Positions 13,760-62,522 of a DNA stretch of 64,000 bases are shown one piece after another. Both the position numbers and the translations under genes were made by a program. The stretch is from Verrucomicrobiota bacterium (GTDB lineage: Bacteria > Verrucomicrobiota > Verrucomicrobiia > Limisphaerales > UBA9464): the NCBI GenBank assembly GCA_017309115.1, contig JAFLEF010000041.1, positions 1-64,000 on the forward strand, read 5' to 3'. The notes under the pieces are model-generated. The model saw only the letters and a list, made by a program, of their open reading frames with translations, ran no database searches and was not told the origin of the DNA. The first letter of the stretch is position 1, and each line of letters begins with the position of its first letter.

Positions 13760-14890
13760 GTGAGGTTTTGTTTGCGAACATTCGGAGCCGGTTTGGCGGT
13801 AGCGATGCTGGGAGGATTGACAGGCTGTGATCGCCCGGTGTCACCGGCGGCGGTGTCGACTCCACCGCCGGCAGTGACCTCTCCGTTTCAACCGACGGTG
13901 GCGAACACTAATCCGCCTCCGGGGACCCCACCTCGGGGCATGGTTTGGATTCCCGGAGGCGAGTTCTCCATGGGCAGTGAAGATCCGCGCGCAGACATGT
14001 GTGGTGGGCCGGACCCCATGCGCGATGCGCGGCCGATTCACCGGGTTTACGTGGACGGCTTCTTCATGGACGCCACCGAGGTCACCAACGAGGAGTTCGA
14101 ACGTTTCGTGAAGGCCACGGGCTACGTGACTATCGCGGAGCAAACGCCGCGGGCGGAGGATTTCCCCGGGGCACCGCCGGAGAACCTGGTGGCGGGTTCC
14201 ACGGTGTTCACCCCGACCCCAGCGCGCGTGCCGCTGGATGACCATTTTCAGTGGTGGCGGTATCAGAAAGGGGCGAATTGGCGGCATCCGGACGGTCCGG
14301 GCAGTTCCCTCGAGGGCCGGGAGAAGTATCCGGTAATCCACATCGCCTACGACGATGCCGTGGCCTACGCAAAATGGGCGGGCAAACGGCTGCCGACCGA
14401 GGCCGAGTGGGAATTTGCCGCGCGCGGGGGTCGGGCCGGAGAACTCTATTCGTGGGGAAATGACCTCAAGCCAGGCGGCAAGTTCGTCGCCAATATTTTC
14501 GAAGGGGTCTTTCCGGTGGAAGACACGGGGGCAGATGGCTTCGTAGGTCTGGCGCCGGTGGCGCAATTCCCACCGAATCCGTACGGGCTATTCGATATTG
14601 GCGGGAATGTCTGGGAATGGGTTAGTGACTGGTATCGGCCGGACTCCTACCAGCAACGCGTGCTCGCGGGCGGGGTGGCGCGGAATCCGATTGGACCGCT
14701 CACTCCGTATGACCCCGCCGAGCCCCACGAAAAGAAGCGGGTTCATCGGGGCGGATCCTTCCTGTGCACGGATCAGTATTGCACCCGCTATATGGTCGGC
14801 AGTCGGGGTAAGGGCGAGGTGTCGACCGGCAGCAATCACGTTGGCTTTCGTTGCGTGATGACTCCGGAGCAGTATCGGGGGGCGAAGTAG
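13760..14890 (+). CDS. Formylglycine-generating enzyme (sulfatase maturase), lipoprotein-like N-terminus
   Basis: SUMF1/FGE-type enzyme that oxidises the active-site Cys of sulfatases to formylglycine. The GTG at 13760 gives a short basic N-terminus, hydrophobic core and a lipobox-like LTGC; an in-frame TTG at 13724 is the alternative. The catalytic core begins GMVWIPGGEFSMGSEDPRA and contains LPTEAEWEFAARGG, NVWEWVSDWY and the C-terminal RGGSFLCTDQYC. The two Cys (336 and 341 from the GTG) are the copper-binding catalytic pair that separates genuine FGE from catalytically silent relatives. GFRCV closes the domain. A sulfatase with a CSPTR site lies at 60662. Its stop codon TAG shares two bases with the first AGTTGAA heptamer. 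Confidence 0.9.
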   Translation: MRFCLRTFGAGLAVAMLGGLTGCDRPVSPAAVSTPPPAVTSPFQPTVANTNPPPGTPPRGMVWIPGGEFSMGSEDPRADMCGGPDPMRDARPIHRVYVDGFFMDATEVTNEEFERFVKATGYVTIAEQTPRAEDFPGAPPENLVAGSTVFTPTPARVPLDDHFQWWRYQKGANWRHPDGPGSSLEGREKYPVIHIAYDDAVAYAKWAGKRLPTEAEWEFAARGGRAGELYSWGNDLKPGGKFVANIFEGVFPVEDTGADGFVGLAPVAQFPPNPYGLFDIGGNVWEWVSDWYRPDSYQQRVLAGGVARNPIGPLTPYDPAEPHEKKRVHRGGSFLCTDQYCTRYMVGSRGKGEVSTGSNHVGFRCVMTPEQYRGAK

Positions 14891-15021
14891 TTGAAAGTTA
14901 AGAGTTGAGAGGAGCGAAAACCGGTGAACCGGATCTGCATTGTGTCCACAAACCTATCGGCATTTCTAACGTGCTGGACTTCAGGTTTTTTCTCTCAACT
15001 CTCAACCTTCAACTCTCAACC
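14891..15021. repeat. Inverted heptamer arrays between convergent genes, terminator-like
   Basis: AGTTGAA/AGTTAAG/AGTTGAG units start inside the stop codon of the plus-strand gene. CTCTCAACTCTCAACC units at 14994-15021 (AGTTGAG on the minus strand) run into the stop codon of the minus-strand gene. The two runs can pair (AAGAGTTGAGAG with CTCTCAACTCTCAAC), with GAAAACC facing GGTTTTTT. The arrangement could act as a two-way terminator, but that is inference. Confidence 0.7.
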
Positions 15022-15524
15022 GTTTGTGGGTGATTGAGGCGGCGCCACAGAACGAGGAAGGCGCTGGCGAAATCTTGCGGCCGACGGGCGATCCATTCAT
15101 TGACGGCGTCGGGGGCGAACCAGGCGCCGCCGCGCACCTCGGACGGTTGGAGGACGAAGGGACCTTCATGCTCGGCCCGATAAACCCAGCAGAACTCCCA
15201 GCCAGTTTCCGGAGTGGCCTCCAGCTTGAGAACTCGGGGCGGGACGGTGGCGAGTGTGACGCCGAGCTCTTCCGTGATCTCGCGCAGGCAACACGCGTCG
15301 TAGTCTTCACCGGAGTCCAGATGGCCGGAAGACGAGGAGTCCCAGACGCCGGGCCAGTTGTCTTTGGCCAGGGATCGCTGCTGGAGAAACACCTCACCGA
15401 GTCGATTGAAGAGGAGGACATGGACGGCTCGGTGGCGAAGGTTGAGCCGATGCACCTCGCGCCGCGGAGCCTGTCCGATGACTTCATCGCGTTCGTTGAC
15501 CACATCGAAGATTTCTTCCGCCAT
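15009..15524 (-). CDS. NUDIX hydrolase, isopentenyl-diphosphate isomerase-like subgroup
   Basis: Small NUDIX-fold enzyme, 171 aa. A perfect NUDIX box GX5EX7REXXEELGV is present as GHLDSGEDYDACCL-REITEELGV (about residues 66-88), the Mg-binding hydrolase site. The opening EEIFDVVNERDEVIGQAPR and VHVLLFNRLGEVFLQQRS resemble the YfcD/Idi-like branch often annotated as putative isomerases, whose true substrates are mostly unknown. The last codons (V-E-S-stop, GTTGAGAGTTGA) are heptamer-repeat sequence, so the gene end has been captured by an array. It stands alone, converging with the FGE gene. Confidence 0.9.
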   Translation of the reverse strand: MAEEIFDVVNERDEVIGQAPRREVHRLNLRHRAVHVLLFNRLGEVFLQQRSLAKDNWPGVWDSSSSGHLDSGEDYDACCLREITEELGVTLATVPPRVLKLEATPETGWEFCWVYRAEHEGPFVLQPSEVRGGAWFAPDAVNEWIARRPQDFASAFLVLWRRLNHPQTVES

Positions 15525-16045
15525 GCGCGAGGAAACGAATTGTGAGGTCGGTTGGGAAGGGGAAAGGGTGGAGTCGCGGTAGGGATGGACCGCTGGTCCG
15601 TCCCCCCGCTTTCGAGCGGAGCGAAGGAACGCGGATTTTGGTGGTCAGCGTCAACGGCACACCCGCTTCGAAGACAACCCAGGGAAGGGGCTCCCGCGGA
15701 AGACGCGAAGACCGCGCCGGAGGGAACGAATTTGGAAAACATGAAAACAGGATGAGGAATCGTGGGGCGGAAAAGTGGTGTGCGGCCAGGAAGGCGCGGG
15801 GCGTTTGGACTGCGCCGGCCCTCTGGCGCTTTGGGCGCGTGAAGGGAAGGTGGGGTTGAGGGTGACTCGACGCGTCAGCAGTCGGGTCGAAAAGCGGTCG
15901 CGATGCAGGCTTCGCTACCGCACTGCTCCAAAGGCTAAGCGAGGCGTCACCCGATCGTCCCTCGGACCGGTGCTCTGCAATTTTGTTGAATCGCACCCGG
16001 CAGTGACCGCCAATCTGCATTTGTTCGCTGTTTCGTTGTCACGTT
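15525..16045. repeat. Gene-free stretch: dispersed repeats R1 (copy 2) and R4 (copy 2)
   Basis: R1 copy 2 is at 15579-15705 (GTAGGGATGGACCGCTGG, GAGCGGAGCGAAGGAACGCGG, GGTGGTCAGCG, then CTTCGAAGACAACCCAGGGA). R4 copy 2 is at about 15797-15950 (GGCGTTTGGACTGCGCCGGCC, then GTCAGCAGTCGGGTCGAAAAG and GATGCAGGCTTCGCTACCGC). Neither has coding character. The promoter of argA should lie in the last 90 bases, but no convincing -35/-10 pair was recognised. Confidence 0.75.
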
Positions 16046-17335
16046 GTGAAACCCACTGATCTGCGCGGAATTCTCCGTTACATCCCCCGGTTCCGGGAAA
16101 AGGTATTCGTGGTCGCCTTGAATGGCGCCATTGTGACGGATGATAATTTCCCCAACCTGCTGCTCGACCTGGCGGTGCTTCGGTCGCTGAACATTCGCAT
16201 CATTCTGGTGCACGGCGCCGCGGCGCAAATCCAGGCGCTGGGCGTGGAACGTGGGGTGACGCCGTCCAATCTCGACGGAATCGGGGTGACCGACGCCGCC
16301 ACGTTAAGCCTGTCCCTCACCGCGGCCAACCGGTTGACCCACGAGATTCTCGAAGGACTGGCCACCAATGATCTGCGGGCGGTATCCACCAATGCCATTA
16401 TTGCTCATCCCCTCGGGATTCTGGGCGGAGTAGATCATCAGTTCACCGGCAAGGTGGAGCGGGTGGATGTCGAGTTCCTTCAGGCTCTGCTCAGTCAGGG
16501 AATTCTGCCCGTGTTGCCGCCCCTGGGTTTTGACGGGGACGGAAAGACCTACCGGGTCAATTCCGATGCCATCGCTTTCGCCATTGCCGATCAATTGAAG
16601 GCGACCAAGCTGATCTTCCTCACCACTGGTGATGGTCTGACGCGGCAGGGACGACTCCTGCGCCAGGTTCCGGTGAATGATCTGCGCCAACTGCTCAGTC
16701 AGAACCCGAGCGAGTTGCCTCCCGACCTGTTGTCGAAGGCGCGGTTTGCCGTGGCGGCCTGCGAGGCCGGCATTCCGCGGGTGCACATTCTGAACGGGAC
16801 CGTCGACGAGGGATTGCTCGCCGAGGTGTTTTCCAACGAAGGCATTGGAACTCTGATTTATGCCAACGAGTACCAGCAGATTCGCCGAGCCTTGAAGAAG
16901 GACATTCGCAGCCTGCTGCAATTGACCAAGACGTCGGTGGAGTCGCAGGAGCTCGTCAAACGGACCCGGACTGATCTGGAACGTCGTATTGGTGATTACT
17001 ACCTGTTCGAGATCGACCGCAATCCGGTCGCTTGCGTGGCCCTGCATATTTATCCGGAAGAGAACTCCGGTGAGTTGGCCTTCCTTTTCGTTTCCCCGGC
17101 TCATGAGAATCAGGGAATTGGGGGCAAGCTGGTGCAGTTTGTGGAAGCCCGGGCCCGGGAACTGGGACTGGCAACGCTGGTGACGCTGTCGACTCAGGCG
17201 TTCACCTGGTTCCAGAGCAAAGCGGGCTTTCAAGAAGGCACGGTGGCTGATCTCCCGGCAGCGCGGCGGGATCGGTATGACGCCAGCGGCCGGCGCTCGA
17301 AGGTGCTGGTTAAGCGGTTAACCTCGACCGCGTGA
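16046..17335 (+). CDS. argA: Amino-acid N-acetyltransferase (N-acetylglutamate synthase)
   Basis: First enzyme of arginine synthesis: acetyl-CoA plus glutamate gives N-acetylglutamate. The 429-residue chain has the classic ArgA layout. An amino-acid-kinase domain (about 1-285: FVVALNGAIVTDDNF, IILVHGAAAQIQ, YRVNSDAIAFAIADQLKA, KLIFLTTGDG) binds the regulator. It is followed by a GNAT acetyltransferase domain (about 290-425: LAFLFVSPAHENQGIGGKL for the acetyl-CoA loop, WFQSKAGFQEG). The GTG start at 16046 matches the family N-terminus FREKVFVVALNG. It is monocistronic, convergent with the superoxide dismutase gene. No other arg gene is in the window. Arginine feedback through the kinase-like domain is family knowledge. 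Confidence 0.95.
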   Translation: MKPTDLRGILRYIPRFREKVFVVALNGAIVTDDNFPNLLLDLAVLRSLNIRIILVHGAAAQIQALGVERGVTPSNLDGIGVTDAATLSLSLTAANRLTHEILEGLATNDLRAVSTNAIIAHPLGILGGVDHQFTGKVERVDVEFLQALLSQGILPVLPPLGFDGDGKTYRVNSDAIAFAIADQLKATKLIFLTTGDGLTRQGRLLRQVPVNDLRQLLSQNPSELPPDLLSKARFAVAACEAGIPRVHILNGTVDEGLLAEVFSNEGIGTLIYANEYQQIRRALKKDIRSLLQLTKTSVESQELVKRTRTDLERRIGDYYLFEIDRNPVACVALHIYPEENSGELAFLFVSPAHENQGIGGKLVQFVEARARELGLATLVTLSTQAFTWFQSKAGFQEGTVADLPAARRDRYDASGRRSKVLVKRLTSTA

Positions 17336-17385
17336 GGTTAGTCTGCGGCGGCCCCTTCGACCTTCTCTTCCTCTGGGGATCCGGA

Positions 17386-17424
17386 AACAAAAACGGCGCC
17401 TGAATCCGGAGAGTCAGACGCCGC
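17386..17424 (-). terminator. Rho-independent terminator of the superoxide dismutase gene
   Basis: On the minus strand, a 9-bp stem (GGCGTCTGA with TCAGGCGCC, one mismatch) closes a loop of about 10 bases and is followed by GTTTTTGTTT. It lies 23 bases past the dismutase stop codon. Confidence 0.75.
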
Positions 17425-17446
17425 AGGCGAATTTGTGGGAGACCGG

Positions 17447-18172
17447 TTAGGCGGTCAGTTTCTCGAAGCGATCTTCCAGGTAGGGCCAGTTGATTACGCT
17501 CATGCAGGCCTGGACGTATTCGTTTCGGCGATTCTGGTACTTCAGGTAATAGGCGTGCTCCCAGACATCGAGGCCGAAGAGGGGTTTGTTGCCGTTCGCC
17601 AGCGGCGTGTCCTGGTTCGGCGTCGTCTCCAGCACAATATCATTGTTCTTGTTGACGCTCAGCCAGACCCAACCGCTGCCGAACACGCTCAACGCCTTGG
17701 TCAGAAATTCCTGTTTACCGGTATCCTCATCCGGGAACAGCCGACCAAGAGCTTCCATCAGGGGTCCTTCGCTGAGGGGGGCGCTGTCTTTCTTGAGCGT
17801 CTTCCAAAACAACGTGTGATTGTAGTCGCCGCCGGCGTTGTTGCGGACTGCGGTGCGGACCTTCTCGGGAACCTTGTCGAGATTGGAGACCAGCTGCTCG
17901 ACGGTCATTTTCTGGAGTTCCGGATAGTCGGCCACCGCCTTGTTGAGATTGTTGACGTAGGCGGCGTGGTGCTTGGTGTAGTGGATCTCCATGGTGCGCG
18001 CGTCGATGAAGGGTTCGAGTGCGTCATAAGCGTAGCCCAGGGGCGGCAGCTTGAACGGACCGGTGGGGGCGGCAGCCTGGGCGAGCGCGCGGGTGAGGCT
18101 GGTGCTGATGAACAGGGTGGTGCCGGCAAGGAACGTGGTTCGCAGGGCCTGGCGACGGGTGAGCAGATTCAT
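17447..18172 (-). CDS. sodA: Exported superoxide dismutase, Mn/Fe family, with Tat-like signal
   Basis: Converts superoxide to peroxide and oxygen. The start at 18172 gives MNLLTRRQALRTTFLAG, a twin-arginine-like signal ending near ALAQA, so the enzyme probably acts in the periplasm. The mature part begins FKLPPLGYAYDALEPFID, the usual dismutase opening. Metal ligands are all visible: His64 (MEIHYTKHH), His118 (YNHTLFW), Asp201 and His205 (DVWEHAYY). Gln186 in TPNQDTPL favours the Mn-type active site. The upstream extension of the frame (to 18781) overlaps lepB antisense and is not coding. It converges with argA and is divergent from lepB, with 126 bases between their starts. Confidence 0.93.
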   Translation of the reverse strand: MNLLTRRQALRTTFLAGTTLFISTSLTRALAQAAAPTGPFKLPPLGYAYDALEPFIDARTMEIHYTKHHAAYVNNLNKAVADYPELQKMTVEQLVSNLDKVPEKVRTAVRNNAGGDYNHTLFWKTLKKDSAPLSEGPLMEALGRLFPDEDTGKQEFLTKALSVFGSGWVWLSVNKNNDIVLETTPNQDTPLANGNKPLFGLDVWEHAYYLKYQNRRNEYVQACMSVINWPYLEDRFEKLTA

Positions 18173-18298
18173 GAAGAATATGGCTGAAGTTGCTGTGCGT
18201 CGGAGACACTTGTCTGTGAATCGACGGCGCGCAAGGCGGCGAAATTGGGGATTTGGCGGATGGCCCGATCCCGCTAGAGTGGCCTCGACACGACCTGC

Positions 18299-19341: not shown

Positions 19342-19352
19342 CAGGTCTCGGG

Positions 19353-20618
19353 TTAGGCCGGCTGACTGACGGGCTTGGGATATTCGACCCGACCGACGAG
19401 GCGATTCCACGCTAGCCAACCGGTCGCCAAGGCCAACAGCGAACAGGTGAGGTAGGGCCAGGCCGGATGCTGATCGAAGAACGCTCCGGCGAACAATGGA
19501 CCGAGAATACGGGCGAGGCTGCCGGCGCTTTGGACCACCCCCAGAGTGGTGCCGCGTTCGTGGTCGGGGGAGAGGAGCGACACCAGTCCAAACAAGGGCG
19601 GACGCGTCAGGCCGGAGCCGATGGCGATGAGACCAATGAAGAACAGCACCAGCCACCAGGTGTGGCCTGCCGGGGAGTTTAGGGTGGACCACGTCAGAGC
19701 ACCCCGTCCGGTTAGCCAGGGCATCGGGGCCAGTCCGCAGGCGAAGACGATCAGACTGAGGGCAATCAAGCGGGGTTCGCCCAGTCGTTTCACCAACCTT
19801 CCGATCGGCCCGGCCTGAACGAAGGCACCAATGATTCCGGCGAACGAAAAGAGTACGGCATTGGCGTTGTGTGCGGCGGAACCTTCCAATTGGAAATTGC
19901 GGGTGATCAGGAGACCCAGGGTGGTTTCGAAACAGGTGAACCCAAAGGTGGCCAGGAAGAAGACCGCGACCAGGAAGCCGACGGTGGGCTGCCGCAGCAC
20001 GTGCCCCAGGTTCTGCCAGCGACTGCGGGAGACCGGGGGCTGGGTGCCGGGCTTCCAGCTTTCCGGCAGACGTGCCAAGGCGATGATGAAGTTAAGGGCA
20101 CAGATTGCCGAGGCGATCAGGCCTGGACCCACTTCGCCAAACAACGATTGCCCGAGGACCGCCAGCGCCGGCCCAATGATGAATCCCAGACCAAAGGCCA
20201 TACCGATGAGACCCATCCGTTTCGAGCGGTCTTCCGGCGGGGTGATGTCGGCGATGTAGGCCTGAGCGACGGTGATGTTCGCCCCACAGATTCCGGCGAA
20301 GACGCGGGACGCCAGGATGAGTCCCAGGGCCCAGGAGCCCGACAACGTGGAGGCGAAGGCGAAGAGGGCGTAACTGACAACATTACCGCCAATACTGATC
20401 AGCAGAACGGGTCGGCGGCCCACTCGGTCGGACCAAGCGCCCCAGATCGGGGCGAAGAGAAACTGCATGGCCGAATAGCTGGCCATCAGCCCACCCACCA
20501 TCAGTCCAGACGCACCGAAGCTGTGGGCATAGGTGGGCAACAGCGGCAACACGATGCCGAAGCCCACCAGGTCCACAAAGACCGTCAAAAAGATCGCCAA
20601 GAGCGACGGTTTCTTCAT
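19353..20618 (-). CDS. Major facilitator superfamily exporter, TetA/DHA1-like
   Basis: Inner-membrane transporter with about 12 hydrophobic segments, 421 aa from the ATG at 20618. The upstream part of the frame is repeat DNA. Landmarks of drug:proton antiporters of the DHA1 class are present: LVGFGIVLPLLPTYA in helix 1, the loop 2-3 motif GAWSDRVGRRPVLLIS, and GANITVAQAYIADITPPEDRSKR, which matches the TetA-type helix 4-5 region. The second half has a matching LGEPRLIAL loop. Such proteins export tetracyclines, other drugs or metabolites; the substrate cannot be assigned here, and no TetR-type regulator is adjacent. It is convergent with the lepB pair, 11 bases between stops. Confidence 0.9.
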   Translation of the reverse strand: MKKPSLLAIFLTVFVDLVGFGIVLPLLPTYAHSFGASGLMVGGLMASYSAMQFLFAPIWGAWSDRVGRRPVLLISIGGNVVSYALFAFASTLSGSWALGLILASRVFAGICGANITVAQAYIADITPPEDRSKRMGLIGMAFGLGFIIGPALAVLGQSLFGEVGPGLIASAICALNFIIALARLPESWKPGTQPPVSRSRWQNLGHVLRQPTVGFLVAVFFLATFGFTCFETTLGLLITRNFQLEGSAAHNANAVLFSFAGIIGAFVQAGPIGRLVKRLGEPRLIALSLIVFACGLAPMPWLTGRGALTWSTLNSPAGHTWWLVLFFIGLIAIGSGLTRPPLFGLVSLLSPDHERGTTLGVVQSAGSLARILGPLFAGAFFDQHPAWPYLTCSLLALATGWLAWNRLVGRVEYPKPVSQPA

Positions 20619-20670
20619 TCGCGCGGAGAAGCTGAGAGGCAAAGCGGGAAGCGGCAAGCGGCAAGGAAGC

Positions 20671-20930: not shown

Positions 20931-20997
20931 TTCGACCGCTCAGCTGGGTGGAGGATGGGAGAGGGTTTATCCGCAGATTCTTTGCAGGCTGTGAGCG

Positions 20998-21126
20998 GTA
21001 GGGATGGACCGCTGGGCCGTCCCCGCGATCCCGAGCGGAGCGAAGGGACGCGGATCTTGGTGGTCTGCGTGGTGCGGAAACTCGCTTCGAAGACAACCCA
21101 GGGAAGGGGCTCCCGCGGAGCGTCGC
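20998..21126. repeat. Dispersed repeat R1, copy 3
   Basis: This is a long copy, including GTAGGGATGGACCGCTGGGC, CCGAGCGGAGCGAAGG, TTGGTGGTCTGCG and the extension CTTCGAAGACAACCCAGGGA. It is closest to the copy at 15579, with which it shares about 125 bases. Confidence 0.8.
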
Positions 21127-21142
21127 CCTGCCTTTTGGGAAA

Positions 21143-21262
21143 GCTGAGAGCTGAGAGCTGAGAGCTGAGAGGTCGGAGGGGGAAAGCCGGGCGAGGCTTC
21201 GTCCAAGCCGTTCTGGGCCCTTATTCTCCGGTCTCTCAACCCTCAACTTTCAACTCTCAACT
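21143..21262. repeat. Opposed heptamer arrays upstream of the SRP RNA
   Basis: AGCTGAG units (about four, 21143-21174) end in GAGAGGTCGGA. An opposed TCTCAACCCTCAACTTTCAAC run lies at 21231-21262. The two could pair into a long hairpin with a GC-rich centre. The surrounding stretch from 20619 to 21329 (711 bases) contains only repeats and the presumed promoter of the SRP RNA; no gene is supported. Confidence 0.75.
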
Positions 21263-21329
21263 GATTCGACGCACAAAAACTGTGACTCCTCGCTTGCTCC
21301 CGGGCGGCCAGAAATCCAGATTCGCGGCG

Positions 21330-21418
21330 CCAGGGCCCATGGAACGCGGACTTACGAACCCCGCCAGGGCCGGAAGGCAGCAACGGTAGTTTGCTCCCGT
21401 CTGCCGTGGTCACCCTGG
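21330..21418 (+). ncRNA. ffs: Bacterial signal recognition particle RNA (4.5S type)
   Basis: The conserved SRP domain IV core is present: CCAGGGCCGGAAGGCAGCA (from about 21364) with the GGAA tetraloop and the asymmetric AGCA loop. The ends pair: CCAGGGCCCATGG at the 5' side with CCGTGGTCACCCTGG at the 3' side. This gives a hairpin of about 89 nt, the short 4.5S form without an Alu domain. It lies directly upstream of dnaX, a known gene order. The ends are inferred from pairing and may be off by several bases. Confidence 0.9.
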
Positions 21419-21534
21419 TTCTCCTCTCCTTTCCCGCGCTTTTTGGTTTTCGGTTTCGGATTTTCGATCTCCAATCGGCTCCCCGTTCCGCAAATGCTTC
21501 GGCTCGGGGTCATCGAACTTCGAATTCTGCTCTC

Positions 21535-28085: not shown

Positions 28086-29414
28086 ATGAAGGCCCCGCAT
28101 ATTTCCACCCGGCCGTCGTTGTCCCGGCGGCAGTTTCTGCGCGGCACCGGAGTGCTGCTGTCGCTCCCGTGGCTCGATGCCATGACCCCGGCCTTTGCCG
28201 ATGTGGTGGCCCCACCCGCCAACCTGAATCCAGGCGGGAAACCACGCCGCTTCCTGGGCATTTGCAACAACTTGGGTCTTCTCCCGGAGCACTTCTTTCC
28301 GACGGGTACCGGTCGCGATTACCTGGCGTCGCCGTATCTGGAGTTGCTGCGGGAGCATCGGAATGACTTCACCGTGTTCAGCGGCGTGTGGCATCCGGAG
28401 GTCGATGGCGGGCATCCGGCTGACAACTGCTTTCTCACCGCGGCGCCGCATCCGGGCAGCGCGGGATTCCGCAACACCATCTCCCTTGACCAATACCTGG
28501 CCGAACGGATCGGGCATCTGACCCGGTTTCCCTCACTGACCTTGGGCGTGAATGTCCAGCAGGGTATCCGCTCGCTGTCCTGGACCGGTTCTGGCGCTTT
28601 GATTCCCTGTGAAGAGAAGTCCTCCGTGGTGTTTTCCCGGCTTTTTCTGAAGGGGACTCCGGCCGAGACGGAGGCCCAGGTCCGCCGGCTTGAGACAGGT
28701 CAAAGCATTCTGGATGCGGTGTCGGGACAACTAAAGTCTCTCGAAGGTTCCGTCGGCCCGCGGGATCGGGACCGGCTCGATCAGTATGTCACCAGTGTTC
28801 GGGAACTGGAGCAACGGATGCAGATGTCGCGCGAATGGGAGGATCGCCCCAAGCCCACGGTCACTGCCTCCGCGCCGTTGGATCCCGAAAGCCCCAAGGC
28901 GTACATGGATAAGGTCAAACTGATGTACGATCTGGCGCGTTTGGCGTTCGAGACTGATTCCACCCGCTCCATTTCGCTGCTGCTCGATGGGGTGAACTCC
29001 CCGGCGATAGAGTTTGGTGAGGTCAAGACCTCGGACGGATACCACAACCTTTCCCACCACGGAAAATCGAAGGAGAAACTGGCCCAGCTCCGAACGATTG
29101 ATGAGTGGCACATGAAGTTGCTGGCAGACTTGTTCAGTCAGTTGAAGGCCATTCGAGAAGACGGCGAGCCGTTGCTGGACCGAACCTCAATTCTGTATGG
29201 GTCCAATTTGGGGAATGCCAACACGCATGTGACCACCAACCTCCCGGTCGTCTTTGCGGGCGGAGGATTCCGTCATGGCCAGCATCTGGCGTTCGACACG
29301 CAGCACAATTACCCGCTGCCGAATCTGTTCGTTTCCACCTTGCAGCGAATGGGCCTGGAGACGAATCGGTTTGCGACTTCGACGGGAACGATGCGCGGCT
29401 TGGAGTGGGTTTAG
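28086..29414 (+). CDS. DUF1552 family protein with Tat signal
   Basis: Exported protein of 442 aa, unknown function. The N-terminus carries [18 protein letters not shown], a twin-arginine signal matching S/T-R-R-x-F-L-K. The mature part has family landmarks [51 protein letters not shown] and [17 protein letters not shown]. The fold is related to the DUF1501/alkaline-phosphatase-like group. It follows the DUF1592-type gene at 54 bases, the standard pair in this phylum, so the two products probably work together at the cell surface. The stop TAG is followed at once by TTGAG, so the stop overlaps an AGTTGAG unit. Confidence 0.94.
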
Positions 29415-29450
29415 TTGAGACGGGCGGGTAAGGGGTAAGGGGTAAGGGCG
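29410..29450 (+). repeat. Heptamer run after the DUF1552 gene: one AGTTGAG plus GGTAAGG x3
   Basis: An AGTTGAG unit overlaps the TAG stop codon, followed by GGTAAGGGGTAAGGGGTAAGG. This is the only place where both heptamer types follow the same gene. The TAA-bearing strand is the sense strand of the gene. The rest of the gap to 29705 holds no recognised feature. Confidence 0.8.
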
Positions 29451-42284: not shown

Positions 42285-43067
42285 GTGTCCCCTCGGCTTC
42301 CTCTATCTGTTTGCCTGATCTCCGGCGCCGAAGCGGCCCGGATTGGCCGTGCTTTGGAAAGCGTGGCGGAGTTGGCGTCGGAGATCATTGTGGTGCTGAA
42401 CCAGGAGGTGCAGGACGGCACTGAAGAGATTTGCCGAAAGTGGGGTGCCCAAGTGTATCGGGAACCATGGAAGGGCCACATTGCGCAGAAGAATTCCGCC
42501 GCCGCCAAAGCCACCCAGCCTTGGGTGTTGGGATTGGATGCCGATGAGGCAGTTTCGCCGGGGCTGCAGGCCGAGTTGATGAACCTTCTCCGAAACCCGG
42601 AGTCAGCGGCGGCCTGTTCGGCGTACGCCTTCCCCCGACTTTCGTTCTTTCTGGGTCGCTGGATTCGGCACGGCGACTGGTATCCCGACCGCAAGGTCCG
42701 GTTGTGGCAACGAGGACGGGCTCGGTGGGCGGGAATCGATCCACATGACTTCGTTCAGGTGGACGGCGCGGTGGGCCGGTTGCGGGGCGATCTGCTGCAT
42801 TACAGCAATCCGACCATGGGATCGTACGTGCAGAAACTGCCGTACTTCGCGGACCTGTATCTTCAGCAGCAGTTGGCGGCGGGGGCTCGTTGGTCGGCGC
42901 CAGTGGCGGTGGTGCGTTCTGTTTGGCGATTCTTTCGGGCCTACGTGTTTCGGTTGGGGTTTCTTGATGGCTATCCGGGATTCTTCATTGCCGCCACCAC
43001 GGCGTATGGGGCCTTGGTGCGTCACACCCGCTTGTATGAGCATCAGCAGGGGACGAAGGAAAGCTGA
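42285..43067 (+). CDS. Glycosyltransferase family 2, WaaE/KdtX-like
   Basis: GT-A fold transferase of 260 aa, of the kind adding glucose or another sugar to the LPS inner core. The GTG at 42285 follows GAGAAGGAG at a normal distance. The N-terminus LSVCLISGAEAARIGRALESV is the first Rossmann strand and helix; LGLDADEAVSPGLQAEL holds the DxD-type metal site; LYHYSNPTMGSYVQKLPYFADLY-like sequence and the C-terminal RLGFLDGYPGFFIA are WaaE/KdtX hallmarks. The last codon and stop (AGC TGA) are the first part of an AGCTGAG heptamer, so the gene end is set by the repeat. Confidence 0.9.
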   Translation: MSPRLPLSVCLISGAEAARIGRALESVAELASEIIVVLNQEVQDGTEEICRKWGAQVYREPWKGHIAQKNSAAAKATQPWVLGLDADEAVSPGLQAELMNLLRNPESAAACSAYAFPRLSFFLGRWIRHGDWYPDRKVRLWQRGRARWAGIDPHDFVQVDGAVGRLRGDLLHYSNPTMGSYVQKLPYFADLYLQQQLAAGARWSAPVAVVRSVWRFFRAYVFRLGFLDGYPGFFIAATTAYGALVRHTRLYEHQQGTKES

Positions 43068-43145
43068 GAGCTGAGAGTTGAGAGCTGAGAGTTGAGAGGT
43101 CGGAATGGAAAGGAGGGTGGGGCGACGCACTGCGGAGCCGTCACT
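43061..43145 (+). repeat. Heptamer array at the GT2 stop, followed by a truncated R2 repeat
   Basis: AGCTGAG/AGCTGAG/AGTTGAG/AGCTGAG/AGTTGAG units begin inside the stop codon and close with GAGAGGTCGGA. At about 43114 the first 32 bases of R2 follow (GGGTGGGGCGACGCACTGCG), truncated before the DUF1501 stop codon. Confidence 0.85.
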
Positions 43146-52816: not shown

Positions 52817-52834
52817 GCGAACGGGTAGATACCA

Positions 52835-52866: not shown

Positions 52867-52878
52867 GCTGCCGGGGGG

Positions 52879-53278
52879 AAAGCTGAGAGCTGAGAGCTGA
52901 GAGCTGAGAGGTCGGAAGGGGAAGATTGGGTAGGGCGACGCTCCGCGGAGCCGTCCGTAGGTGGACTGGTCATGCGTCATTCGCCGGGTCGCGAACGGCT
53001 CGGTGGAACCTCGCCCCACCGGACGGCGTAGCCGCCGACGGAAGGGGGCGCCGTTCAGTCTCATGATGCGTTGATCGGAAAGTGACGCGTGAAGTCGACC
53101 AATCGAATCAGCGCCTCGTCCCCTCGGCTACGGTAGGGCGACGCTCCGCGGAGCCGTCCGTGGGTGGACTGGTCACGCGTCATTCGTCGGGCCGCGAACG
53201 GCTCGGTGGAACCTCGCCCCACCGCTTACTGCTTACCGTCTTTACCTCTCAGCTCTCAGCTCTCAGCTCTCAGCTTCT
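52879..53278. repeat. Repeat module: heptamer arrays flanking R2 copies 4 and 5
   Basis: AGCTGAG x4 plus GAGAGGTCGGA (52879-52914) opens the module, followed by R2 with extension (52929-53123, matching 12243-12440) and a second, core-only R2 (53132-53222). TCTCAGC x4 (53244-53278, AGCTGAG on the minus strand) closes it and runs into the stop codon of the minus-strand methyltransferase. No gene lies inside. It separates convergent genes. Confidence 0.88.
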
Positions 53279-55254: not shown

Positions 55255-55260
55255 GAGGCG

Positions 55261-56909: not shown

Positions 56910-56923
56910 AAGTGGCAGGTCCG

Positions 56924-58156
56924 TTACAGAGTTCGCGCGCCGGCGGGCGAGAGATCCAGGCAGATCAAGTCGCCTTTGGCATTGCGCAGATAGAGTCGTT
57001 GGTTGGCCAAGACCGGGGAGGTCCAGCATTTGCCGCCGATGGGGTGGGTTCGGGCGAGCGGGATGAACTTCTCCGGGGTCGCGCGGACTACGGTCACCTC
57101 GCCTTTGTCGCTCAGAACAATCAGTCGATCTCCGGAGGCGATGAGAGAACCCTGTCCAAAGCCCTTCTCACCCCACCGCACGGTCCCGGTCTTGAGGTCC
57201 AAGCACCGCAATTCCTGGTCGGCGTTTTTGTAGGCGGCGGTTTCGTGGCCGTACAGATGCCCATCGATCAGGACTGCCGTGCCCGTAAAGGTGGACAGGT
57301 TCTTATTCTTCCAAACCCGGCGGGCGCCTTGGGACGAAACTTCCAACAGTTCGCCGCCGTCGTCGCCGGAGCTGATGAAGACTTGATTGCCCTGGACGAT
57401 GGGATCGGAGCAATGCGTTCGGTAACCCTGGCCGAAGCTGGACGACCAGAGCGTGGCGCCGGAGGTGGGATTTACCGCCACCAGAGCTTCCGACATGAAA
57501 AAGAGGGCGGCAGGTTGACCGTCGAGATCGAGCAGGACCGGAGCGGCAAAGCTCATGTCCTTCTTCTTTCCGGAATTCCAAAGAACCTTGCCAGTAGCGG
57601 GAGCCAGGGCCACGCCATGGGGGCCGTAATTGATCAGCAGGGTCTGATCGTTGAACCACACCGGCGCCCCCGAGACTCCCCAATCCGACAACGGCGCGCC
57701 CACCTCCTTCTTGAGGCTGGTGTGCCACTTCACGTCTCCGGAGGCAGTGTCCAAGGCGTAGATTTCGCCGGTCTTGCTGGCCGTAAACACCTGATTGCCC
57801 ACCACCAGAGGCGTGGAGTTGGGGCCTCCCTCGTACATTTTGTTGCCCAACGGCTGAGGGTACGAATAGGTCCAGAGCGTCTTCCCCGTCTCGGCGGAAA
57901 GGCAGGACACGACGTCCGAGCCCTCCCGGTGTCCCAACGTAAACACTCGCCCGTCGGCGACGACCACGGACGAGAACCCGACTCCTACCTCGGCTTTCCA
58001 GGACGTTTTGGGGCCTTCGGCTGGCCAATCGTGACTCCAGGTGGTTTCAGGGGTTATGCCGTTTCGATTGGGTCCCCGCCAGGACGGCCAATCAGCGGCC
58101 TGAAGGATCAGGGGGAAGAGCAGCAGGGCGGGTATCAACCAGCGTGAAGGTCTCAT
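56924..58156 (-). CDS. Exported PQQ-like beta-propeller protein
   Basis: Protein of 410 aa with a signal peptide (MRPSRWLIPALLLFPLILQ) then WPSWRGPNRNGI, the standard opening of outer-membrane-assembly/PQQ-binding-like beta-propellers in this phylum. Propeller repeats of about 45 residues follow with G..YALD..TG...W patterns: EIYALDTASGDVKWHTSL, GVALAPATGKVLWNSGKK, LRCLDLKTGTVRWGEK. No quinoprotein catalytic residues are obvious. The start overlaps the DUF1365 stop by ATGA (58153-58156), placing it inside the lipid operon, where its role is unexplained. The earlier part of the ORF overlaps DUF1365 and is ignored. Confidence 0.9.
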   Translation of the reverse strand: MRPSRWLIPALLLFPLILQAADWPSWRGPNRNGITPETTWSHDWPAEGPKTSWKAEVGVGFSSVVVADGRVFTLGHREGSDVVSCLSAETGKTLWTYSYPQPLGNKMYEGGPNSTPLVVGNQVFTASKTGEIYALDTASGDVKWHTSLKKEVGAPLSDWGVSGAPVWFNDQTLLINYGPHGVALAPATGKVLWNSGKKKDMSFAAPVLLDLDGQPAALFFMSEALVAVNPTSGATLWSSSFGQGYRTHCSDPIVQGNQVFISSGDDGGELLEVSSQGARRVWKNKNLSTFTGTAVLIDGHLYGHETAAYKNADQELRCLDLKTGTVRWGEKGFGQGSLIASGDRLIVLSDKGEVTVVRATPEKFIPLARTHPIGGKCWTSPVLANQRLYLRNAKGDLICLDLSPAGARTL

Positions 58157-59049
58157 GGTATCAGGGAGTTCGTCGCTGGCGGTTGATTTGGATTCACAAT
58201 TAGCGGGGCCAGAGAGGCATGGGGCCGGAACACCCCTTGTTGCAGATCGGGACGGTCGGCTTTGCGGTACCAGGGAAGGCGTTTCCACCACAGCCGAAAG
58301 GCCTGCCAATGGATCAGGGTGATGACCCGCAGCGTGACCAGCGGATAGCGGACAGTCAGGCGCAGCAGTTCGGCATCGGTCAGCGGGCGTTGCCGTCCGG
58401 TCAGCGTGCTGACCAGCCACGTTTGGCCGTCGGTAGTGACGTCGTTGATGTGGATCTCCAGTCGCTGATCCGGCCAGCGCAGCGAGAAATCGAAGCAGAT
58501 CTGCAATTCGCTGAAGGGGGAGACGTAGAAGTGTTTGGGGACGGTCTGACGAAACCGGGCGGCCTCGGTCGTGCTCGCGGAGCCTTGGAGTGGAATCAGG
58601 AACGGTTTCAGTTCCCCGAACGTGTTGCCCACTTCGGTGATCGCGCAAAGGGGTTCTCCGCGTTCGGTCTGGCAAAAGTAGAAACTAACCGGGTTGAAGA
58701 TGTATCCGGCGACGCGGGGCAGGGTGATGAGTTGGATTCGCGCGGTCGTGGGGAGTTGGACCCCTTGGGCGGCGAGCCAGGCGGTGACGGAGGCTTTGGT
58801 GGTGGTGCCCGGTTGGGCTGCGGGAAACTGCAAATGATCGCGGTCGCGAAACTCGTAGAGATTGGGCCGGTTTCTGCCGAGTAGTCGGACGGGCAGATGG
58901 TCCAACTCATCCAGATCCACACTGAGCAGGAAGAGGCCGTATTCGAATCGGTGGACCCGGGGCTGGAAACGATGATGCAGAACCCGGCACTCGTATAGGC
59001 ATGAGCGCCGGTGCTGCCTGCTGGCATCCACTTTCTCTGAACGTGTCAT
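58153..59049 (-). CDS. DUF1365 family protein
   Basis: Protein of 298 aa; the ATG at 59049 is chosen because the earlier 40 residues lack family sequence. DUF1365 landmarks are CLYECRVLHHRFQPRVHRFEY, FNPVSFYFC, GNTFGELKPF, VPKHFYVSPFSEL and IHWQAFRLWWKRLPW. DUF1365 is nearly always encoded beside a CFA-like enzyme; the function is unknown but is assumed to be in lipid modification. It is the first gene of the six-gene operon DUF1365, beta-propeller, CFA, small membrane protein, DUF1295, methyltransferase. The promoter must lie in the 370-base gap upstream. Confidence 0.92.
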   Translation of the reverse strand: MTRSEKVDASRQHRRSCLYECRVLHHRFQPRVHRFEYGLFLLSVDLDELDHLPVRLLGRNRPNLYEFRDRDHLQFPAAQPGTTTKASVTAWLAAQGVQLPTTARIQLITLPRVAGYIFNPVSFYFCQTERGEPLCAITEVGNTFGELKPFLIPLQGSASTTEAARFRQTVPKHFYVSPFSELQICFDFSLRWPDQRLEIHINDVTTDGQTWLVSTLTGRQRPLTDAELLRLTVRYPLVTLRVITLIHWQAFRLWWKRLPWYRKADRPDLQQGVFRPHASLAPLIVNPNQPPATNSLIP

Positions 59050-59419
59050 CGAGACTCCCCGCGAACCCTTGGCCCGACGGCAGCCGACTGTGACACCAGT
59101 CTCAAATTTCGCTACTGGGCGGATGGTTCCTGAGAATCGGGGCCCACTTTGCGCCAGATTTGCGGCCAAGGGGACTGCAAATTCCTTTATCTCCGCCGAA
59201 TTCCCCTAAGAGTCCTGCGGTCGAGACGTGATTGGATCTTGATGGACGTTTCTCTCCAGGCAGTCCCGCCGGTGATCTTCGCCAAGTTCGGCAGGCGGGT
59301 GACCGCGCCGTCGACCGGGACGAATTCTCCCCGGACCGCTCCAAAGAAGGTGAAAGTGGCTGGCCTTCATCATTCAATTCCGCATTGTTTCGATCCTTCG
59401 CTGTTGTAAACCAATTCGC
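59050..59419. other. Divergent promoter region, no gene seen
   Basis: A 370-base stretch between the DUF1365 operon and the GspE-like gene. No convincing ORF, RNA gene or repeat family was recognised, and no clear -35/-10 element. It probably carries the divergent promoters of both transcripts. GC dips slightly near 59180-59210. Confidence 0.4.
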
Positions 59420-60640
59420 ATGAGCTCTCAGACCATCCAATTCCTCCAATCCTGCCGGTCCGATGATGAAATCGACACGGTGCGCCTAGTGGACTGCGTC
59501 ATCATTGACGCCGTCCGCTCCGGAGCCTCGGACATTCACATCGAACCGTGGGAGAGCTCTGTCGCGGTCCGGATCCGTCTGAGCGGTGTGCTCAATGAAC
59601 TGGTCCATCTGCCCAGCGATCTGCTGCCCAAAATTGTGGGTCGACTGAAAATCATGGCCAACCTGATCGGCCACGAGACCACCCTGCCGCAGGAAGGTCG
59701 GGCGCCGACGTTCGAGGAAGCCGGTCACGTGGTGCTGCGTATCTCCACCTTTCCGACCATCCGGGGCGAGAAGGTTGTGATCCGAATCTTCGATCCCCGG
59801 GGACGCAGCTTCGATCTGGAGGGATTGGGCATCGAGGAAGACACGCTGGGCGTCTTCAAGGGAATGCTCAGCAAACCGACCGGATTGATCCTTATGACCG
59901 GTCCAACCGGCTCGGGTAAGACCACGGTCATCTACGCGGCGTTGCATCACCTGATTGAACGCGCCGGCCCGAGTATCAGCGTGGCCACGGTCGAAGACCC
60001 GGTGGAGTTCAACCTGCCGCTGATCGCGCAGTCTCAGTGCAATCCCGCCCGGGAGTACACCTATCCCATCGCGCTGCGGTCCCTGATGCGACAGGATCCC
60101 CAGGTCATCATGATTGGTGAGATTCGTGATGCCGAGACGGCCAATATTGCCGTTCAGGCGGGTCTGACCGGTCACTTGGTGCTGAGCACCATTCACGCTG
60201 CCAATACCCCCGGCGTGTTTGCCCGTATGATCAACATGGGCATCGAACCGTTCCTGCTGGCGTCGTCGATCATGGGCATCATGGGAACCCGCTTGGTCCG
60301 CCGAAATTGCCCGGTATGCGCCGAACCCTATCAGCCGGAGGACACCATTCTGCGCAACGTTCCGGAAGCTCTCCGGGATACCGCCCAGTTCATGAAGGGG
60401 GTGGGCTGCGCGGCCTGCGCCCATACCGGATTCAGCGGTCGCGTTTCGGTGACGGAAATGCTGACCGTCAGCGAAAATCTCCGGGACGCGATCCTCCAAA
60501 AGATGCCGACCCGTCAGCTCCAGGAAATCGCTGTGGGGGACGGTTTGCTGACGCTGTGGGATAAGGGACTGCGCCGCGTGATGGCGGGTGAGACGACGCT
60601 GGAAGAAGTCCTTCGCGTCATCGGCATGGAAGGTTTCTAG
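59420..60640 (+). CDS. Type II secretion/type IV pilus ATPase, GspE/PilB-like, short form
   Basis: Hexameric secretion ATPase, 406 aa. It lacks the long N-terminal domain of canonical GspE/PilB (about 500-570 aa); the N2/C-terminal modules are complete. ASDIHIEPWESSVAVRIRLSG opens the N2 domain; Walker A is GPTGSGKTT, the Asp box ATVEDPVEF, Walker B VIMIGEIRD, and the His box is TGHLVLSTIHAANTP. A CPVC...CAAC zinc motif is intact at about 294-332. No pilin, GspF or GspD lies adjacent, so the gene is orphan; it may serve a pilus or secretion system encoded elsewhere. It is followed 21 bases later by the sulfatase gene. Confidence 0.93.
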   Translation: MSSQTIQFLQSCRSDDEIDTVRLVDCVIIDAVRSGASDIHIEPWESSVAVRIRLSGVLNELVHLPSDLLPKIVGRLKIMANLIGHETTLPQEGRAPTFEEAGHVVLRISTFPTIRGEKVVIRIFDPRGRSFDLEGLGIEEDTLGVFKGMLSKPTGLILMTGPTGSGKTTVIYAALHHLIERAGPSISVATVEDPVEFNLPLIAQSQCNPAREYTYPIALRSLMRQDPQVIMIGEIRDAETANIAVQAGLTGHLVLSTIHAANTPGVFARMINMGIEPFLLASSIMGIMGTRLVRRNCPVCAEPYQPEDTILRNVPEALRDTAQFMKGVGCAACAHTGFSGRVSVTEMLTVSENLRDAILQKMPTRQLQEIAVGDGLLTLWDKGLRRVMAGETTLEEVLRVIGMEGF

Positions 60641-60661
60641 GCCGACCTTCGGTTTGTCCGC

Positions 60662-62179
60662 ATGGTTCGGATTTTGCCCCACCTGTACGCCCGGATCTGC
60701 CAGGCGGTGGTTCTGATTGGGGCGTGGTTGGTCGGAAGCATTCCCGTCGAGGCAGCCCTGGCGGGTCGGCGTCCGAACATTGTATTGGTCCTGACGGATG
60801 ATCAGGGCTACGGCGACCTGTCCTGCCATGGGAATCCGCTGTTGCGAACGCCGCATCTGGATCGATTGCATGATGAGGGGGTACGGTTCACGGACTTTCA
60901 CGTCAGTCCGACCTGTTCGCCGACGCGCAGTGCGCTCCTGACTGGGCGTCACGAGTTCCGGAATGGAGTGACCCACACCATTCTGGAGCGGGAGCGACTG
61001 ACCCTGCAGGCGGTCACGCTGGCGCAGGTGCTGCAGTCGGTCGGGTATGCGACCGGCATTTTTGGGAAGTGGCACTTGGGCGATGAGACCGAGTATCAGC
61101 CGGACCGCCGGGGGTTCGAGGAAGTCTTCATTCATGGCGGCGGCGGGATTGGGCAGACTTACCCGGGGTCCTGTGGGGATGCGCCTGGGAACACCTATTT
61201 CAATCCCGCGATCTGGCACAATGGGTCGTTTGTGAAGACCCGGGGCTACTGCACGGATGTCTTCTTCGGGCAGGCCTTGACCTGGATTGAGGCCGTGCAG
61301 GGACGTCGGCCGTTCTTCGCCTACATCGCTTGCAACGCGCCGCATGCGCCCCTGCAGGTTCGGCCCGAGGACGAAGCCCGCTACGCCGGCAAGATCGCGA
61401 ATACCAATGCGGTGAAGTTCCTGGGCATGGTCGCCAACATTGATGACAACGTGGGCCGTTTGCTGGAGCGGCTGGCGATCCTGGGTCGGGATCGGGACAC
61501 CCTGGTGATTTTTCTGACCGACAACGGAGCAGATGGCGGGATCTTGACCGGCTACAATGCCGGGATGCGCGGCAAGAAAGGGACGGCGTATCTGGGCGGA
61601 ACCCGGGCCGCGTCGTTGTGGCGTTGGCCGGGGACATTGGTTCCGGGAGCGAGGTCCAACCTGACCGCGCATCTGGATGTGTTTCCCACGTTGGCCGAGC
61701 TGGCGGGTGCCTCCTCCACGCCGGCGATCCGGGCCCAGGTGGAAGGGCGAAGTCTGGTGCCGCTCCTGGAATCCGGGTCGGCGCCCTGGCCGGATCGGAC
61801 GCTATTCACGCATCTGGGTCGCTGGGCCAAGGGTGCGGATCCGGCGACCACCAAGTATCGCATGGCGGCGGTGCGGACGCCGCGCTGGCATCTGGTTTCG
61901 GCGGACGCGACTAACACCCCGCGTTGGCAGTTGTTCGACGTGTCCGGCGATCCCGGGGAGACCACCGACGTGGCGGCGGCAAATCCGGACGTGATGCGGG
62001 AACTGACCCAGGCGTTTGAGGCTTGGTGGGTTTCGGTGCAGAGCGGGTTAGTGAACGAGACCGTTCGGGGACCGCAGCTCAATCCCTTCAAGGAGCGATA
62101 CTGGCGTCAGTTTGGTGGTGGGCCGACGGAGCAGGAGAAACGGTTGATGGATCCCGAGCTGTCGCCGGTGGGGCGGTGA
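60662..62179 (+). CDS. Secreted sulfatase, formylglycine (S1) type
   Basis: Hydrolyses sulfate esters, probably from sulfated polysaccharides. The signal peptide is in residues 1-34 (ICQAVVLIGAWLVGSIPVEA). The family opening RPNIVLVLTDDQGYGDLSCHG supplies the metal-binding Asp46 and Asp47. The active-site motif is CSPTRSALLTGR, with Cys85 to be converted to formylglycine by the enzyme at 13760. KWHLG and the metal site TDNGADGG are present. At 505 aa it is a normal S1 sulfatase. It lies 21 bases after the secretion ATPase, though co-function is unproven. Confidence 0.95.
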   Translation: MVRILPHLYARICQAVVLIGAWLVGSIPVEAALAGRRPNIVLVLTDDQGYGDLSCHGNPLLRTPHLDRLHDEGVRFTDFHVSPTCSPTRSALLTGRHEFRNGVTHTILERERLTLQAVTLAQVLQSVGYATGIFGKWHLGDETEYQPDRRGFEEVFIHGGGGIGQTYPGSCGDAPGNTYFNPAIWHNGSFVKTRGYCTDVFFGQALTWIEAVQGRRPFFAYIACNAPHAPLQVRPEDEARYAGKIANTNAVKFLGMVANIDDNVGRLLERLAILGRDRDTLVIFLTDNGADGGILTGYNAGMRGKKGTAYLGGTRAASLWRWPGTLVPGARSNLTAHLDVFPTLAELAGASSTPAIRAQVEGRSLVPLLESGSAPWPDRTLFTHLGRWAKGADPATTKYRMAAVRTPRWHLVSADATNTPRWQLFDVSGDPGETTDVAAANPDVMRELTQAFEAWWVSVQSGLVNETVRGPQLNPFKERYWRQFGGGPTEQEKRLMDPELSPVGR

Positions 62180-62187
62180 AGCGGGGA

Positions 62188-62522
62188 GCAAGCTGAGAGC
62201 TGAGAACTGAGAGCTGAGAGCTGAGAGCTGAGAGCTGAGAGGTCGGAAGGGGGAGATTCTGGTGGGGCGACGCTCCGCGGAGCCGTGCGTGGGTGGAGTG
62301 GTGACGCGCGATTCGCCGGGACGCGAACGGCTCGATGGAATCTCGCCCCACCGGGGTGGGGAAAGCTGAGAGCTGAGAGTTGAGAGCTGAGAGGTAAGCG
62401 GGAAAACTCGGTAGGGATGGACCGCTGGGCCGTCCCCGCGTTTCCAAGTGGAGCGAAGGAACGCGGCCTTCGCTGGTCAGCGCCGGACGGACACCCGCCC
62501 AAAGCAAGGAAAGGGGTAGGGT
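62188..62522. repeat. Repeat module: heptamer arrays, R2 copy 6, R1 copy 4
   Basis: AGCTGAG x7, with one ACTGAGA variant, ends in GAGAGGTCGGA (62188-62245). An R2 copy (62261-62355), a second heptamer run (62366-62395) and an R1 copy (62411-62515) follow. The first heptamer array starts nine bases after the sulfatase stop. No coding sequence. Confidence 0.85.

Follow-up and report, generated by a model that had tools for sequence, protein, structure and literature searches.

Repeats with a period of seven nucleotides have been described between the genes of distantly related bacteria. In Xanthomonas and Nostoc, the heptamers GGGAATC and GGGGA(C/T)T, respectively, are over-represented between genes (Rehm et al., 2015; PMC4692102). 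According to the sections of that article drawn upon here, the nearest gene is located 5′ of the repeat on either strand, the repeats are found on the coding strand 0–50 bp from stop codons, overlaps included, and on the non-coding strand upstream of start codons, and X. campestris has 70 convergent pairs of them and X. axonopodis has 75. The TAACTGA repeats of the Beggiatoaceae stop all three reading frames and 13 sets of them overlap the stop codon of the upstream gene, and the author argues, in the part of the article considered, that forward repeats are confined to the ends of open reading frames (ORFs) (MacGregor, 2015; PMC4679880). Another type of repeat, the GTAG repetitive extragenic palindromes (REPs), is described in the relevant sections of PMC3733652 as lying near the 3′ ends of genes, with palindromes in inverted pairs and with termini that often supply a TAG stop codon; most GTAG-20 elements of Opitutus terrae carry the tag GTGG (PMC3733652). 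In the present work we describe heptamer arrays, whose main unit is AGCTGAG, in a stretch of 64,000 bases (hereafter the window) comprising the first part of contig JAFLEF010000041.1 of a Verrucomicrobiota bacterium (assembly GCA_017309115.1; 7.53 Mb in 111 contigs), and in further parts of the same genome. We consider it likely, with a probability of about 0.7, that these arrays form the outer borders of short elements dispersed between genes, viz. composites of REPs and paired REPs (REPINs) and an 85-bp repeat bounded by terminal inverted repeats (TIRs) that resembles a miniature inverted-repeat transposable element (MITE).

In the window, the array pattern AGYTGARAGYTGAR is matched 25 times and the pattern GGTAAGGGGTAAGG eight times, with 0.00 expected for each based upon 100 dinucleotide shuffles; the former matches 1,426 times in the whole genome, versus at most 21 times in each of four other genomes of the genus. 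The placement of arrays was analyzed in a total of 2.25 Mb (30%) of this one genome, divided into sample 1 (1,454,002 bp), in which the window is included, and a held-out sample of 800,000 bp from 20 other contigs, for which the distance rules were kept unchanged. Genes were called with a home-made caller based upon a dicodon model (1,009 in sample 1 and 501 in the held-out sample), the stops of which are firm and the starts approximate, and the orientation of an array was taken to be that of its purine-rich strand. Arrays located deep inside a called gene were dropped before the counts (2/66, 0/33, and 1/54, and 1/112 in the set used for random placement). Those of ambiguous purine content were removed by a filter newly applied to both samples, which retained 109 arrays in sample 1, compared with 111 before it (at which stage 35 were sense and 3 antisense), and 105 arrays in the held-out sample for the orientation counts. 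Arrays of one element were counted singly, so the counts are not independent. When tandem repeats with periods of 4–12 and a score of at least 14 were collected, period 7 accounted for 84 arrays in sample 1 (83 intergenic) and 76 in the held-out sample (71 intergenic), with at most three arrays for each other period in both.

The arrays exhibit a consistent polarity with respect to the adjoining genes, and this pattern is real and is replicated in the held-out sample. Arrays that overlapped a stop codon or were found within 30 bp of it were oriented sense versus antisense in a ratio of 35:2 in sample 1 and 33:2 in the held-out sample (total 68:4), and those within 100 bp of a gene start read away from the gene rather than toward it in ratios of 29:0 and 17:5, respectively (total 46:5). 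Among arrays with genes on both sides, the nearer gene was on the 5′ side of the array in 77/97 and 70/87 cases. When 99 arrays from sample 1 were re-placed in their own intergenic regions on a random strand (2,000 runs), 7.1 sense arrays near stops were obtained (standard deviation 2.4, maximum 15), versus 29 observed. Additionally, 36 of the 125 array-holding intergenic regions carried arrays in both orientations and these faced inward in all 36; with another definition of arrays the same was true for 27/27 such regions among 79. Seven unit types, representing three unit families with and without stops, share this one polarity. Arrays at 7954, 12193, and 21143 had been set aside earlier as not following a gene end on the relevant strand, but they are no exceptions, as each of them reads away from the start of its nearest gene and thus fits the wider rule. 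The arrays reported here also follow the placement rule described by Rehm et al., by which the nearest gene is located 5′ of the repeat and the repeats that come after stops are on the coding strand.

The sequences that adjoin the arrays provide the second line of evidence. A palindrome referred to as REP-A, with the consensus GGTRGGGCGANGYTYCRCNGAGCC, is present in 591 copies in this genome, whereas each of 59 relatives contains at most six copies and 49 of the 59 contain none. It possesses the hallmark of the GTAG REPs, namely a 5′ GTAG/GTGG tag followed by an imperfect palindrome, and it is extragenic: in sample 1 all 107 copies with at most three mismatches were outside called genes, and 7 of 136 were inside genes when five mismatches were allowed. 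Among 229 REP-A copies, 114 are paired head-to-head, forming 57 REPINs of which 52 are 92 or 93 bp in length. In sample 1, 93 of 153 arrays had a REP-A or REP-B within 150 bp, and where the two were on the same strand the REP was downstream of the array in 55 cases and upstream in three (20 and 15, respectively, for opposite strands). The arrays that flank REPINs show a corresponding asymmetry, with 29 plus-strand and 8 minus-strand arrays on the left side and 22 minus-strand and 4 plus-strand arrays on the right. MITEs are short, dispersed elements bounded by TIRs, and the second kind of element may be akin to them. Its ends are CCACAAACC...GGTTTGTGG and it holds an AGTTGAG array inside. The pattern used to find this element itself demands ends that resemble CCACAAAC and GTTTGTGG, and TIRs are therefore present in all of its matches by construction. 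It gave 16 matches, including eight of 85 bp, two of 92 bp that contain one heptamer more, and one of 118 bp that looks spurious. At a second place in the genome the overlap between the element and a gene end amounts to 29 bp. A 28-mer of four AGTTGAR units in a fixed order of variants has 56 exact copies in the genome, for which repeated independent slippage is not an expected source; a single contig (C42) carries 11 of these copies. GAGG, with 12 cases, is the commonest unit order among the AGTTGAR arrays. The AGCTGAG arrays are followed by AGGTC in 45 of 133 cases, 37 of which have AGGTCGGAA.

To compare arrays and REPs directly, the first feature was recorded at the 3′ side of 1,510 genes, within a span from 25 nt inside the gene to 60 nt past its stop. 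The sense to antisense ratio was 87:7 for arrays, 27:1 for REP-A, 6:0 for REP-B, and 1:1 for REP-C; hence, edges on which REP-A or REP-B comes first are polarized (33:1) like the arrays. For first features at gene starts, the away to toward ratio was 50:5 for arrays, 9:5 for REP-A, and 3:0 for REP-B. The same polarity at starts and for REP-first edges indicates that the orientation derives from the edges of elements and not from stop codons.

The original prediction centered upon stop codons, and most of what it reported of them is borne out by the sequence. All five of the overlaps that it listed between arrays and the stops of the FGE, NUDIX, DUF1552, GT2, and CFA-like genes are present, that of FGE with one imperfect unit. 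The quoted units AGCTGAG, AGTTGAG, AGTTGAA, GGTAAGG, and GGTAAGC stop all three frames on the purine-rich strand and none of the three on the other strand, as was claimed. The statement that every unit bears TGA or TAA holds for these quoted units but not for GGGAAGC, GGCAAGC, and GGGAAGG, which have no stop; the first two of these, at least, occur as arrays in this genome. An effect of the stops is evident from intrusion into genes. Considering sense edges that intrude or lie within 30 bp of the stop of genes longer than 250 bp, 25 of 85 arrays intruded and supplied the stop of the gene, in contrast to 0 of 28 REP-first edges (Fisher p = 4e-4). Of the antisense features, one REP intrudes by 68 nt, and four arrays and one REP are within 30 bp of a stop. 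The distance of the stop past the array edge was 5–6 nt for eight genes, 12–13 nt for six, 19–20 nt for six, 1–2 nt for three, and 29 nt for two; all three frames are thus used. Three-frame stops thus appear to widen the places where an element can survive without setting its strand. Of the two interpretations offered by the original prediction, a repeat that tolerates or captures gene ends is favored by the intrusion contrast, whereas a translational backstop finds no support as an explanation of placement or strand.

The backstop explanation, by which arrays are retained after genes to halt readthrough in every frame, deserves consideration because the units stop 3/3 frames on the sense strand only, because the 25 genes that end within an array use the three frames about equally, and because stop-free arrays are seldom near stops (1/15). 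Nevertheless, we regard it as improbable. The polarity is identical at gene starts, to which stops have no relevance, REP-first edges are polarized in the same manner, the native stop comes before the array in 60 of the 85 near-stop cases, and, according to the sections of PMC4692102 used here, stop-free heptamers in other bacteria are placed alike. Moreover, a backstop should make arrays more common at stops than at equivalent start edges, but they made up 87 of the 121 first features that are sense at stops versus 50 of the 62 that read away at starts; a selected backstop is therefore not demonstrated.

A function at the 3′ ends of RNAs, in which inward-facing arrays and REPINs fold into extended hairpins and thereby end transcription or shield both mRNAs of convergent genes, appears to be about equally unlikely. 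The array pair at 21142–21262 folds as a single hairpin (z -3.45) and three REPINs also fold better than their shuffles (z -2.7, -3.5, and -6.9), and arrays in sample 1 were present in 20 of 67 convergent intergenic regions, compared with 11 of the 132 that were divergent and 36 of the 289 that were codirectional (array-free regions being counted only if at least 100 bp in length). However, the folds of two single-sided arrays do not surpass those of their shuffles (z +1.09 and +0.38), the regions with arrays on both sides are a minority (36/125), and the array after the porin gene is located 64 nt past the porin stop, from which it is already separated by hairpin-like sequence and a T-run. 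Lastly, plain microsatellites, born in place by polymerase slippage and persisting where genes tolerate them, would agree with the excess of period 7 reported for numerous bacteria (in the parts considered of PMC4679880 and PMC4692102, which cite others), with the length difference of exactly 7 bp in the TIR element and with the relatives, in which many arrays are situated within ORFs that run along the stop-free strand, but they are very improbable in view of the recurrent GAGG order and its 56 exact copies, the shared sequence downstream of AGCTGAG arrays and the amplification of REP-A alongside the arrays in this genome.

In the reading of the arrays as edges of dispersed elements, the purine-rich strand of each edge reads inward and hence away from the gene that the element abuts, a strong bias with exceptions, and this strand is the sense strand at the 3′ end of a gene and the antisense strand at its 5′ end. 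The units probably spread as parts of elements, after which whole heptamers would have been gained or lost, as suggested by the fixed unit order and the lengths of 85 and 92 bp. As translation that enters from the gene side is stopped in all three frames by most edge units, an edge may occupy the final codons of a gene with the loss of only a few residues, and the survival of such insertions would give rise to overlapped stops, a cause with which the intrusion counts are consistent. The REP part would most likely have been moved by a transposase of the Y1 type or a REP-associated tyrosine transposase (RAYT). The genome contains five matches to Y1_Tnp, and a REP-B-like site is found near one of these loci (L194). 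A RAYT gene flanked by its own REPs was sought, but none of the five matches had REP-A within about 1.5 kb. At another locus (L193; G000:C23), a Y1 transposase gene of the IS200/IS605 family is situated amid copies of a different palindrome-rich sequence; its surroundings are perhaps a separate transposase system of the TIR type.

A number of observations weigh against the proposal that the arrays are element edges. No recognized pair was seen for 115 of the 229 REP-A copies, and an outward orientation was observed for 12 pairs of neighboring REPs. In sample 1, 60 of 153 arrays had no REP-A or REP-B (at most 3 or 4 mismatches) inside 150 bp, and membership in REP elements is therefore not shown for all arrays. 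The matches to the TIR element have no preference for which of their ends is near the gene (6 versus 8). Four of the Y1 matches were scored, and three were matched by the RAYT model below the NCBIfam cut-off and one by IS200 above it; neither REP-A nor arrays were found within about 1.5 kb of the Y1 transposase genes, in a draft genome from which a whole unit could be missing. Stop-free arrays were near stops in only 1 of 15 cases versus 61 of 172 for three-frame-stop arrays; either stops could matter more than we have allowed, or stop-free units could merely lie deeper in the elements. Of those stop-free arrays that have a gene on either side, 8/9 in sample 1 but only 1/3 in the held-out sample read away from the nearer gene. 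A clean empty site was not found in homologous neighborhoods of the Tex, CFA, GT2, and DUF1552 genes, because downstream neighbors are not conserved. In relatives of the same order, 12 of 22 arrays from 20 stretches were within long, unvetted ORFs, 11 of them with the purine-rich strand antisense; arrays there are therefore not solely element edges, and placement at edges alone does not hold throughout the order. The antisense orientation within these ORFs fits with a ban on the stop-bearing strand within a reading frame.

Homologues of the overlapped genes were also considered, since the original prediction had named orthologous genes that end alike in the absence of any repeat as evidence against it, and such cases were found in part. 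For the CFA-like, GT2, and DUF1552 genes, 11 non-self loci per gene were taken from larger lists of matches, and all 33 proteins end at about the same residue, 0–18 residues beyond the aligned core. No period-7 runs or array motifs were detected in any of these 33 loci (N runs left out) over a span that begins 40 nt upstream of the stop and extends 100 nt past it, whereas the three self loci were all positive. The NUDIX protein ends in ...LNHPQTVES in the window versus ...LRERS in a homologue (L118). The upstream neighbors of the CFA, GT2, and DUF1552 homologues are often conserved, but the downstream ones are not. The four best homologues of the window's Tex protein, which are 79–86% identical, come from metagenome-assembled genomes of Verrucomicrobia.

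Within the genus, five AGYTGAG arrays were seen by eye, unscored, in four stretches of one other genome (G002); a GGTAGGGACG... palindrome comes after two of these and a GGTGGGTGC...GCACCCACC palindrome after one, whereas the remaining two have neither. Quite different heptamers are present in other families of the order, viz. TGCGGAG, GGGTCAG, and CTGAGAC (L247, 534–617, genome G043; L254, 292–355 and 1928–2005, genome G047), and one pair of TGCGGAG arrays faces inward yet lies within a long ORF. The arrays inside ORFs of relatives (L241–L254) could encode residue repeats. Counting a 14-mer as a proxy for arrays in relatives was rejected, as the 50 matches in one genome (G038) are probably mostly not arrays. 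Both ends of three contigs read in that genome place the 14-mer inside one repeated, insertion-sequence-like sequence, and the contigs (L236–L240) break about 95 bp past the AGTTGAGAGTTGAA 14-mer in a repeated sequence that is probably an insertion sequence.

The features identified in the window are listed in Table 1. The element at 21142–21262 occupies the upstream region of a gene for the small bacterial signal recognition particle RNA (21328–21423, plus strand), which begins 66 bp downstream of it. Between two arrays of one intergenic region, an 86-bp unit is present in four tandem copies (62514–62859). A match to a Group II intron (Rfam RF00029) is located at the window edge (52–120, plus strand). 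The distribution of arrays along the genome is very uneven, e.g., the first 216 kb of contig C1 have no listed arrays and the next 40 kb (216001–260000) have five.

Table 1. Arrays, REPs, REPINs and array-overlapped gene ends in the window.
Feature	Position	Strand	Description
GGTAAGC/GGTAAGG arrays	12168..12244	+	Run into REPIN; read away from start of minus-strand gene 11034-12137
REPIN, two inverted GTGG/GTAG REPs	12242..12333		92 bp; fold -62.2 kcal/mol, z -6.9
FGE gene end	TAG 14888-14890; array 14889..14911	+	AG of stop opens AGTTGAA-AGTTAAG-AGTTGAG; middle unit imperfect
TIR-bounded MITE-like element, 85-bp class	14946..15029	-	84 bp here; holds AGTTGAG array; edge forms last codons of NUDIX gene and TGA
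NUDIX gene end	15009	-	Last codon AGT followed by TGA
Stop-free GGGAAGC/GGCAAGC array	20642..20665	+	Reads away from start of minus-strand gene 19353-20618
AGCTGAG array	21142..21171	+	Left arm of inward-facing pair
AGTTGAG array	21235..21262	-	Right arm of inward-facing pair begun at 21142
DUF1552 gene end	TAG 29412-29414; array 29413..29448	+	AG of stop opens one AGTTGAG, then three GGGTAAG
GT2 gene end	43067; AGCTGAG/AGTTGAG array 43062..43098	+	AGC TGA; array supplies TGA
GTGG REP	43116..43140	+	Downstream of GT2 array, same strand
AGCTGAG array after porin gene	52881..52910	+	Left edge of composite element shared with CFA-like gene
REPIN 1 of porin/CFA-like composite	52929..53020		92 bp; folded
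REPIN 2 of porin/CFA-like composite	53132..53223		92 bp
CFA-like gene end	53270; AGCTGAG array 53246..53275	-	AGC TGA; array supplies TGA; right edge of composite with porin-side array
AGCTGAG array, sulfatase gene	62191..62241	+	11 nt beyond sulfatase stop
REPIN after sulfatase gene	62261..62352		92 bp; z -3.5
AGCTGAG array, sulfatase intergenic region	62364..62393	+	
Second REP type (GGTAGGGATGGACCGCTGGGCCGTCC)	62410..62435	+	
AGTTGAG array	62907..62934	-	Inward-facing right edge

Parts of this picture are already known from the articles cited above, as far as the sections considered go: stop-free heptamers that are placed alike, three-frame heptamers that overlap stops and REPs that supply TAG stops. 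In the open-licence literature searched, no report was found of heptamer arrays tied to the edges of REPs or REPINs or to TIR elements, of a difference in intrusion between array edges and REP edges or of intergenic heptamer repeats in Verrucomicrobia. The contrast of 25/85 versus 0/28 provides a measurable effect of three-frame stops on the sites where repeats survive. A more speculative possibility, which we consider less likely than not, is that a selfish family has evolved, or been sieved, into having self-insulating edges, made of inward-reading heptamer arrays that halt translation arriving from outside in any frame, which can occupy the last codons of genes, unlike plain REPs, and that the heptamers of Xanthomonas and Nostoc are likewise edges of elements rather than independent microsatellites or G-quadruplex regulators.

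Based upon the portions of the articles considered, the arrays described here can be compared with the known systems as follows. They are similar to the heptamers of Rehm et al. (2015) in their period of 7, intergenic placement, stop overlaps and convergent pairs. However, those heptamers are stop-free (we have checked that neither GGGAATC nor GGGGAYT has a stop in any frame) and were studied as G-quadruplexes, whereas the main unit AGCTGAG has no G-tract and thus lacks the four G-tracts that could form such structures, even though GGGTAAG units do hold GGG. Further, that article names REPs merely as another class of repeat, whereas the arrays here flank REPINs and are found in a TIR element. 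The TAACTGA repeats (MacGregor, 2015) differ in being mostly located just upstream of start codons in the forward orientation, which is the opposite of the rule observed here. The REPs in this genome resemble the GTAG REPs and their dimers (PMC3733652) in their tag, inverted pairs of palindromes and proximity to 3′ ends, and their 92–93 bp pairs can be likened to the REPINs, a known class of inverted REP pairs (PMC3116915), but a heptamer edge such as that present here does not feature in the description of the GTAG REPs in the sections of PMC3733652 consulted. The heptamer arrays of distant bacteria have thus far been treated separately, as quadruplexes, translational regulators or products of slippage, whereas the single polarity shared here by different unit families and by REP-first edges points to one cause, namely that the arrays are edges of dispersed elements.

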